Shown one piece after another: positions 51,980-54,330 of a stretch of 64,000 nucleotides of DNA. This DNA comes from Blepharisma japonicum (Eukaryota; Ciliophora; Heterotrichea; Heterotrichida; Blepharismidae): contig CATKHK010000011.1 in NCBI GenBank assembly GCA_949751835.1, forward strand, positions 310,327 to 374,326, written 5' to 3'. The position numbers and the translations under genes were made by a program. The notes beneath the pieces were generated by a model that did no database searches, was not told the origin of the DNA, and saw only the letters and a program-made list of their open reading frames with translations. Each line of letters starts with the position of its first letter. The first letter of the stretch is position 1.

Positions 51980-53216
51980 TTATCGCAATTTAATTTCTTC
52001 CAGCTTAATAGCATTTTCTACCTTCTCATTATTGAGAAACTGAACTAAAGAAGTAATGGTTGTGCTCATTATTGCACTTACGGCTTCCTGTGTGAAAAAT
52101 GCCATGTGAGAGGTTACAACTACTTTTGGGTTGCCGAGAAGTCTCATCATTATTTCGTCTTGGACTCCACTTGTAGACCTGTCTTGGTAAAAGATTGAAT
52201 CTTCATGCTCATACACATCTAATGCAACACCTGAGAAATGGTCATGGTTTAAAGCTTTTATTAAGGCTTTTGAATCAATAATGCCCCCTCTGCTGACATT
52301 TATGAGATATGAGCCTTTTTTCATTTTAAATATGTTTTCGCTATTGATTAAATGGTGAGTGCTGGGAACTAAAGGGAGAAATATGGTCAAAATATCGCTG
52401 GCTGCAAGAACATCATCGATCGATTTATACTCTACAAACTCCAAGAGATCTGAATTCGGCTTTGCGTCAAAAGCAAGCAGCTTGCATTCAAATCCTTTCA
52501 TTATTTTACAAAAAAGAGAACCAATGCTTCCTGTACCAAGAATTCCAATAGTTTTCTGATAAAGATTCATCCCCATAAGTCCATCAATTTCAAAATTGCA
52601 CTCTCTTGCACGATTATATGCTCGATACAGCTTGCGATTCAGCATTTGAATCATTCCAATTGCATACTCAGCGACAGCATAAGGAGAATAAGAAGGGACT
52701 GTTGCTACAATGATGCCTAATTCTTCTGCTGTTTCTAGAGACACCATGTTAAATCCAGAGCACATGCATATAGGGATTTCCCCTGATAGCGTTACAAGGA
52801 AAGGCTAGTGCAGGTGGAATTCCAGAGCTGGTTGACCCTGAGTTGATCTTACCAATAAGTGAGTTAGTTGGACCAACTCTGAAATTCCACCTGCAGTAGC
52901 CTGCCCTTGCAGCACTACTCAGGTGAAATTCTTATAAAATCATCTTGATTCCTAAGCTATGAAGTTTCCTTATTACAGCCTCAGAAGCATCGTCATTTAC
53001 AAAAATTGCGATAGCTGCACAATCCTGAGCTAAAGAGACTGTTTCTTCGTTAAGTGCTGCTTTGAAGAATTTCGGTTTAATGAGCTCCTGCATTTGTTTT
53101 TCTTGAATAGCTGATTGGATTCCTTCCATGACATATTGCTTCCCACCATATACCCCAAGTTTAGCCATTGAATTTTTTATCAGAAATGAGGAAAAATATC
53201 GAGCTCTATTAATCAT
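51980..53216 (-). CDS. D-2-hydroxyacid dehydrogenase, interrupted by a TA-flanked element
   Basis: Two halves of one gene. 53216-52935 encodes the N-terminal catalytic-domain part (MAKLGVYGGKQYV, AIAIFVNDDASEAV, GIKMIL). 52768-51980 encodes the rest (CMCSGFNMVSLETAEELG, NAD-binding GILGTGSIGSLF, NVSRGGIID with the catalytic Arg, DVYEHE with the Glu, TSHMAFFT with the His). Between them lies a 166-bp inverted-repeat element. Removing it joins GIKMIL directly to CMCSGF in frame, as in the intact paralogue at 53308-54330. The start at 53216 adds 16 residues (MINRARYFSSFLIKNS), which could be a mitochondrial presequence; the alternative start is Met at 53168. Family: D-lactate dehydrogenase-like, NAD(H)-dependent. 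If the element is not removed from the DNA or RNA, the gene is broken. Confidence 0.8.
52769..52934. mobile_element. TA-flanked terminal-inverted-repeat element (MITE or retained IES)
   Basis: 166 bp present here and absent from the paralogue. Both ends lie at TATA. The ends form long inverted repeats: 52802-52832 and 52872-52902 pair in 28 of 31 positions, and weaker pairing extends outward to both TA ends (left GGGATTTCCCCTGA, right, inverted, AGAATTTCACCTGA). The central loop is about 39 bp. There is no coding capacity. The precise insertion at a TA and the clean rejoining on removal fit a ciliate internal eliminated sequence or a Tc1/mariner-type MITE. Confidence 0.85.
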
Positions 53217-53307: not shown

Positions 53308-54330
53308 TTACTTAGCCTGCATTACTTCGAGTCTGACCTCATTTTCTACTTTTTCATTTCTCAAAAATTGCATAAGTGAAGTCAAAGTGGTTTGCATTAT
53401 GTTCCTCACAGCTTCAACTGTGAAAAATGCCATATGAGATGAAATGATTACTTTTGGCCAGCTTAATAGTCTCATAACTGTGTCATCAACTACTCCAGTA
53501 GAGGAAAGATCGTGATAAAAAATTGAAGACTCATGCTCATAAACATCTAAGGCAACTCCTGAGAAATGGTCTTGCTTTAATGCCTTCAACAATGCTTTGG
53601 TATCAATAAGCCCTCCTCTGCTTACATTGACTAAGAAAGCTCCTTTTTTAATTTTGAAAATATTTTCTTCATTGATTGTATGATAAGTGCTAGGATAAAG
53701 TGGCAAAAATACACTTAAAACGTCACTTTCAGCAAGGACTTCATCTAATGATTTGTATTCCACGAATCCTGCCAACTCTGGGTTGTGGTATACATCATAA
53801 GCAACTATTTTGCACCCAAACCCATTCATGATCCTGCAAAAAACACTTCCAATGTTCCCAGTGCCTAAAACCCCGACTGTTTTTTGATAAAGGTCAAATC
53901 CTAGCAAGCCTTCAATTTCAAAATTACATTCTCTCGTTCTGTTAAAAGCACGGTGGATTTTTCTGTTAAGAGACATTAGCATCCCGACAGCAAATTCAGC
54001 TACTGCATGAGGAGAATAAGTAGGGACTCTTGCAACAATTATCCCTAATTCTTCAGCTGTTTCAAGAGAAACCATGTTAAAGCCTGCGCACATGCATAAA
54101 ATTATTCTTACTCCAATTGAGTGAAGCTCACGGATGACAGCTCCAGATGCATCGTCATTGACAAAAATTGCAATGGCAACGCAGCCTCTGGCCAGAGAAA
54201 CAGTTTCAATGTTGAGGCTTGCTTTAAAATAGTGAGGGATTACTGCTTCGCCTAAGTTTAGCTCTTTAATTGCAGCATCCATACCGTCGTTCACATATTG
54301 TTTGCCTCCGTAAACTCCAAGCCTAGCCAT
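53308..54330 (-). CDS. D-2-hydroxyacid dehydrogenase (D-lactate dehydrogenase-like), 340 aa
   Basis: Complete enzyme of the D-isomer-specific 2-hydroxyacid dehydrogenase family. N-terminal MARLGVYGGKQYV and NDDASGAV; NAD-binding GVLGTGNIGSVF with an acidic residue following (AYDVYHN); catalytic triad residues in NVSRGGLIDT (Arg), DVYEHE (Glu) and ISSHMAFFT (His). The length of about 340 is normal. It converts 2-keto acids such as pyruvate to D-hydroxy acids using NADH. It is a tandem paralogue of the interrupted gene at 51980-53216 and shows no presequence and no element. No introns, no TGA. Confidence 0.93.
   Translation of the reverse strand: MARLGVYGGKQYVNDGMDAAIKELNLGEAVIPHYFKASLNIETVSLARGCVAIAIFVNDDASGAVIRELHSIGVRIILCMCAGFNMVSLETAEELGIIVARVPTYSPHAVAEFAVGMLMSLNRKIHRAFNRTRECNFEIEGLLGFDLYQKTVGVLGTGNIGSVFCRIMNGFGCKIVAYDVYHNPELAGFVEYKSLDEVLAESDVLSVFLPLYPSTYHTINEENIFKIKKGAFLVNVSRGGLIDTKALLKALKQDHFSGVALDVYEHESSIFYHDLSSTGVVDDTVMRLLSWPKVIISSHMAFFTVEAVRNIMQTTLTSLMQFLRNEKVENEVRLEVMQAK

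Follow-up and report, generated by a model that had tools for sequence, protein, structure and literature searches.

The 64,000-nt stretch of Blepharisma japonicum DNA analysed here (the window) is part of contig C11, which measures 645,489 bp in an assembly of 45.2 Mb and 224 contigs. It carries two tandem D-lactate dehydrogenase genes about 140 bp apart, of which one is intact and the other is interrupted by a palindromic segment of 166 bp. The features of the locus are:

52769..52934, no strand: TA-bounded, near-full-length palindromic insertion of 166 bp, MITE/IES-like (inverted-repeat alignment, fold and palindrome scan)
52787..52832, plus strand: inverted repeat, left inner arm (inverted-repeat search)
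52872..52917, minus strand: inverted repeat, right inner arm (inverted-repeat search)
52768..52770, no strand: junction direct repeat ATA, left copy, made of the last flank base and the first two insert bases (sequence)
52934..52936, no strand: junction direct repeat ATA, right copy (sequence)
52932..53168, minus strand: interrupted D-lactate dehydrogenase gene, 5' part, with 78 sense codons and then a TAA formed at the element's end (frame and domain analysis)
51980..52765, minus strand: interrupted gene, 3' part, an open frame of 261 aa from ATG (residues 80-340), NAD-binding domain complete and catalytic domain halved (frame and domain analysis)
53308..54330, minus strand: tandem paralogue, intact, 340 aa, 68% identical, without the insertion (sequence comparison)

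The insert creates a TAA right after codon 78 and shifts the reading frame. When it is taken out of 53168-51980 (minus strand), a single open D-lactate dehydrogenase frame of 340 aa results, with 2-hydroxyacid dehydrogenase catalytic and NAD-binding domains and with solved relatives that include 4cuj. A first-pass annotation had proposed that deletion of 52769-52934 rejoins the frame exactly and that the adjacent intact paralogue is without the element; both points are borne out, by the colinearity of the 340-aa frame with the paralogue and by the DNA alignment of the two genes. Specifically, the joined site (CACATGCA followed directly by TAAAATCATC) aligns with CACATGCATAAAATTATTC of the paralogue, and the insert-free site is colinear with the paralogue at the DNA level and with protein P0001 at the protein level (72%). 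The tandem pair is apparently conserved in another organism, where the contigs of P0001 and the paralogue-like P0004 have the same listed length of 21,422 bp; this suggests that the D-lactate dehydrogenase pair is old. On its own, the 3' frame keeps the NAD-binding domain and covers only positions 68-133 of the 134 in the catalytic-domain model, and the truncated 3' protein, judged by its domains, is unlikely to be an active enzyme.

The DNA of the window is somatic. Contig C11 starts with 326 masked bases, followed by CCCTAACA telomere repeats and then unique sequence. The 18 ATG-to-stop frames of at least 200 codons (with TAA and TAG as stops) make up 57% of the window, the longest reaching 2,365 and 2,161 codons, and the top protein match of the interrupted gene is from Blepharisma stoltei (94-95% identity). 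These 18 frames contain 90 in-frame TGA and 94 TGG codons, which agrees with UGA being read as tryptophan, as described for the B. stoltei code (PMC9942806). The B. stoltei germline is reported to contain 39,799 assembled internal eliminated sequences (IESs) over 41 Mb of somatic sequence (PMC9942856), or about one per kilobase, a density at which germline DNA would scarcely contain uninterrupted frames of 6-7 kb. Such long frames, and a telomere at the start of C11, make it very unlikely that the window represents germline DNA.

Anatomy of the element and search for relatives

The element has a GC content of 46%, compared with 38% in the gene flanks. Its 52787-52832 and 52872-52917 arms (46 nt, ungapped) are 83% complementary, and alignments reproduce the long imperfect inverted repeats noted earlier, with 28 of 31 positions matching in the inner arms. 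Over the first 67 columns, the alignment of the element with its own reverse complement has 53 matches, 9 transitions, 4 transversions and 1 gap; the central stretch matches its reverse complement poorly. As single-stranded DNA, 52765-52940 folds at -41.8 kcal/mol, a value equalled by none of 200 shuffles (z -7.9). TATA, which had also been noted at both ends, is present at 52769-52772 and 52933-52936, where the second copy extends 2 bases beyond the end of the element; the exact direct repeat at the junctions is ATA, which contains TA on both sides. Both ends start with TATA(G/A) and match 5'-TAYNR, a consensus named for Paramecium IESs. This fit is weak support, since Blepharisma IESs are described as sharing no single TIR motif (PMC9942856). 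The element is MITE-like in being short, with terminal inverted repeats and a target-site-like duplication, and at 166 bp it is too short to encode a transposase.

A transcript of the element is predicted to fold into a very stable hairpin (about -85 kcal/mol as RNA), as might be expected if the segment were a normal part of a working gene that is removed or skipped at the RNA level, either as an intron or by ribosome bypass over the hairpin. When GT-AG pairs were tested with donors up to 150 nt upstream and acceptors up to 150 nt downstream, one pair, 172 nt apart, left an open frame of 338 residues, in which 14 residues are replaced by 12. However, no tested pair restores the exact protein, because the TAA stands at the very junction, and each of the 15 combinations that stay open drops 14 or more of the codons immediately preceding the insert. 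Introns of B. stoltei are moreover predominantly 15-16 nt long (PMC9942806), and the codons that flank the gap differ (TTA and ATA), which argues against codon-matched bypass. Removal or skipping of the segment from RNA thus appears very improbable.

Twelve other, weaker inverted repeats were found in the window, with 70-80% complementary arms of 25-39 nt that lie within 400 nt. A stricter palindrome scan (score of at least 22, span below 450) of 264 kb, comprising the window and a further 10 kb from each of the 20 contigs C1-C20, had two matches, one being the element and the other a masked N run; with the element as the sole match outside N, it is not a chance palindrome. DNA similarity searches of the 45.2-Mb assembly with the whole element or its left arm recovered only the element itself and its own palindromic partner, a result that is no proof of rarity for a DNA search, and a 22-base pattern from the inner arm, allowed up to 3 mismatches, matched only the element's own two arms in the same genome (reversed control, 0). 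The failure to find relatives is expected for a somatic assembly. An 18-base end pattern (up to 2 mismatches) matched 54 places in the genome, including the element's own 2, compared with 24 for the reversed control. Four of the 52 other places were inspected (three with one mismatch, one with two) and none folds alike, the lowest 180-nt RNA energy being -42.0 against about -85 for the element; we took these matches as chance. A bacterial or archaeal origin was rejected, with no exact match of the 22-base pattern in GTDB contigs, and a match to Rfam MIR8706 (26.2 bits against a cut-off of 95) was likewise taken as chance.

Long palindromes can mislead assembly, and the interrupted state could in principle be an artefact in which a germline-derived read path was followed at this one place and nearly all macronuclear copies are without the segment. 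MAC-enriched B. stoltei libraries do contain residual germline reads (PMC9942856), but residual retention in such DNA is given as at most 0.02 in the same source. The 264-kb sample holds no other such palindrome, and the window has frames of up to 2,365 codons, indicating that germline reads do not generally win; in addition, the B. stoltei gene model is itself truncated beside the same site (see below). We therefore consider an assembly artefact improbable.

Possible constraint on the interrupted gene and its B. stoltei counterpart

The only B. stoltei protein among the 120 matches listed for the interrupted gene is P0003 (255 aa). Its first residue corresponds to Met 86, 7 codons beyond the insertion point, and from this methionine on the two proteins align colinearly up to the C-terminus. 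Candidates of about 43-137 aa and of 186-593 aa included no B. stoltei protein with the N-terminal part, whether separate or fused; in the latter range two of the 24 candidates matched, namely P0001 and the window's own paralogue. Since an unbroken gene would be expected to be annotated whole, the 5'-truncated P0003 is most simply read as the product of a B. stoltei somatic gene with a break before codon 86. The disruption may thus be shared between the two species, perhaps at the same site, although misannotation or a different lesion would give the same picture.

This truncation also fits the main rival to incomplete excision, according to which a MITE-like insertion, unseen by the excisase, was fixed in both germline and soma and turned this dehydrogenase copy into a young pseudogene covered by its tandem paralogue. 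We regard such a fixed insertion as a serious possibility, short of an even chance. The insert is present in the assembly, where a query with the 569-bp left flank matched only its own place and the paralogue and gave no insert-free copy; the intact paralogue is close by, and the 3' fragment alone is without about half of the catalytic-domain model. The 3' part of the interrupted gene is also less conserved than that of the paralogue: 189 of its 261 residues are identical to its orthologue P0001, as against 216 of 261 between the paralogue and P0004 (56/79 and 55/79, respectively, in the first 79 residues). Faster evolution is nonetheless not peculiar to the broken copy, since P0001, whose gene is uninterrupted, departs from the other four proteins in 14 of the 127 columns on which those four agree, compared with 12/125 for the window gene and 1/114 for the paralogue (the comparison sets differ). 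Ten of the window gene's 12 deviations are common to B. stoltei.

A fixed insertion in a dead gene sits less well with the state of the coding sequence. Neither gene half has any other stop or frameshift besides the insert, although this argument from stops alone is weak, because 15% of simulated runs (substitutions without indels) were stop-free even after 10% neutral substitution per site. The window gene and P0003 differ at 14 of 255 residues, a count that alone would fit neutral divergence of only about 2-3% per site. These differences avoid conserved positions: two fall at the 125 columns that are invariant in four relatives, where about 7 would be expected without constraint (P about 0.008), which, at the level of protein comparison, shows constraint on the 3' part since the split from B. 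stoltei and would be informative on the insertion only if the insertion predates that split. The part of the window gene before the P0003 start comprises 85 residues, of which 78 lie 5' of the insert; of its 33 columns that do not vary among the four relatives, one is changed in the window gene. The paralogues are saturated at synonymous sites, which precludes a dN/dS estimate.

The arms of the element mismatch at 13 of 66 ungapped columns, which implies a considerable age of the insertion if the arms were identical when it inserted; MITE arms can be imperfect from the outset. An old insertion would conflict with a gene that is free of other lesions, unless the gene works in some copies. Overall, the comparisons lean towards a gene that is still in use.

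Proposed incomplete excision and comparison with known systems

The reading that we favour, and to which we would give about an even chance, is that the element is a MITE-like IES that is incompletely excised, with a large share of somatic copies keeping it while excised copies hold the gene under selection. The first-pass annotation had described an IES or MITE that escaped excision; the anatomy, the exact rejoining and the assignment to Blepharisma stand on sequence grounds, and escape from excision is the leading reading. A palindromic derivative of a TA-targeting DNA transposon would have inserted into the germline copy of one of the two tandem D-lactate dehydrogenase genes. As the macronucleus develops, a domesticated PiggyBac-type excisase would cut at the two TA ends and the gene would be rejoined exactly. 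A large share of somatic copies would nevertheless retain the element, so that the assembly shows an interrupted gene, and precisely excised copies, or sexual generations with excision, would keep the gene under selection.

This would be consistent with what is described for B. stoltei (PMC9942856), where TA-bound IESs make up about three quarters of the total of 39,799 and some 70% of IESs lie within genes. The commonest junction repeats there are TA, TAT/ATA and TATA, especially in IESs of up to 228 bp. According to the same source, two palindromic repeat families are suggested as MITE-IESs, partly excised retrotransposon sequences occur in the MAC, and it is conjectured that DNA without suitable target sites may undergo only partial excision. 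The PiggyBac domain PF13843 has 12 matches in the B. japonicum genome, three of them over the whole model, and none in 14 control genomes, which makes their genes candidate excisases by domain. It is the resemblance of the anatomy and junctions to B. stoltei IESs, together with these PiggyBac-domain genes, that leads us to favour an incompletely excised MITE-like IES. Among the 12 matches, the three whole-model ones are free of TAA or TAG, and those at C112:107992-108915 and C214:4909-5954 are interrupted by TAA/TAG and possibly belong to broken or intron-bearing genes.

Some observations count against the favoured reading. No second copy was found in 45.2 Mb, the GC content of 46% is well above the average of 33.3% reported for B. 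stoltei IESs (PMC9942856), the gene has the lower 3' conservation of the tandem pair, and decay of the gene would also be absent if the insertion were recent. We further considered a conserved facultative IES, present in at least two Blepharisma species at the same dehydrogenase codon and kept in many somatic copies, which would heritably turn the gene on or off or control its dosage; this seems unlikely.

Somatic IESs in Paramecium (PMC8467633), retention that sets mating types (PMC11334263) and MITE-IESs in B. stoltei (PMC9942856) are already known, as these sources describe. Compared by description only, the element resembles the palindromic IES families, or MITIES, of B. stoltei (rnd-1_family-87, in the 153-bp peak, and rnd-1_family-160; PMC9942856) in its TA-type repeats, palindromic structure, comparable length, intragenic position and frame-exact removal, but those families are germline sequences, whereas our element lies in a somatic assembly and has a GC content above the IES average. 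As proposed here, it would resemble the incompletely excised somatic IESs of Paramecium, in which a germline segment is kept in a share of macronuclear copies; in that system, retention is measured from reads and IESs are typically <150 bp and AT-rich, while ours is known from the assembly alone (PMC8467633). A likeness, again as proposed, exists to the Paramecium mating-type IESs (mtA, mtB), whose differential retention in or beside a gene alters somatic expression. For those a switch that determines mating type is described, whereas the present element is known in the interrupted state alone (PMC11334263).

What is new is the locus, together with a hint of a disruption common to two species. 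A search of the open-licence literature, with query terms other than the gene name, found no work on this locus. Should insert-bearing and insert-free copies occur side by side, the gene would report cleanly on incomplete DNA elimination in a heterotrich, and the adjacent paralogue would serve as an empty-site control. If the somatic genome of B. stoltei carries the same insert, this would show that the soma has tolerated a MITE-like IES in coding sequence for a long time, or that retention of this IES is regulated, and it would test the view of excision as a continuum against that of an all-or-nothing defence. A conserved facultative IES, if real, would parallel mating-type retention in Paramecium but act on a metabolic gene, one of two tandem enzymes.

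The element also resembles BogoMITE, a Pogo/Tigger MITE of B. stoltei, in being short and having inverted repeats. Identity with BogoMITE was ruled out, as that element is described as about 389 bp long, with TAA/TTA repeats and a C-rich TIR of about 30 bp (PMC9942856), none of which our element has. A search of the B. japonicum genome with the B. stoltei Bogo TIR gave 8 weak partial matches with 2 mismatches (reversed control, 0) and no link to the element. Six of these matches were cut out; in L041 (contig C21) and in the overlapping L042/L043 (contig C38), the match forms half of an imperfect palindrome of about 40 bp, which in L042 reads CCCTGTGAGCGAACAAAA TTA GTTTGTTGGCTTATGGAG. L042/L043 lie about 0.4-0.5 kb from telomere repeats, and L041 and L042/L043 may be decayed Bogo-type remnants in somatic DNA.
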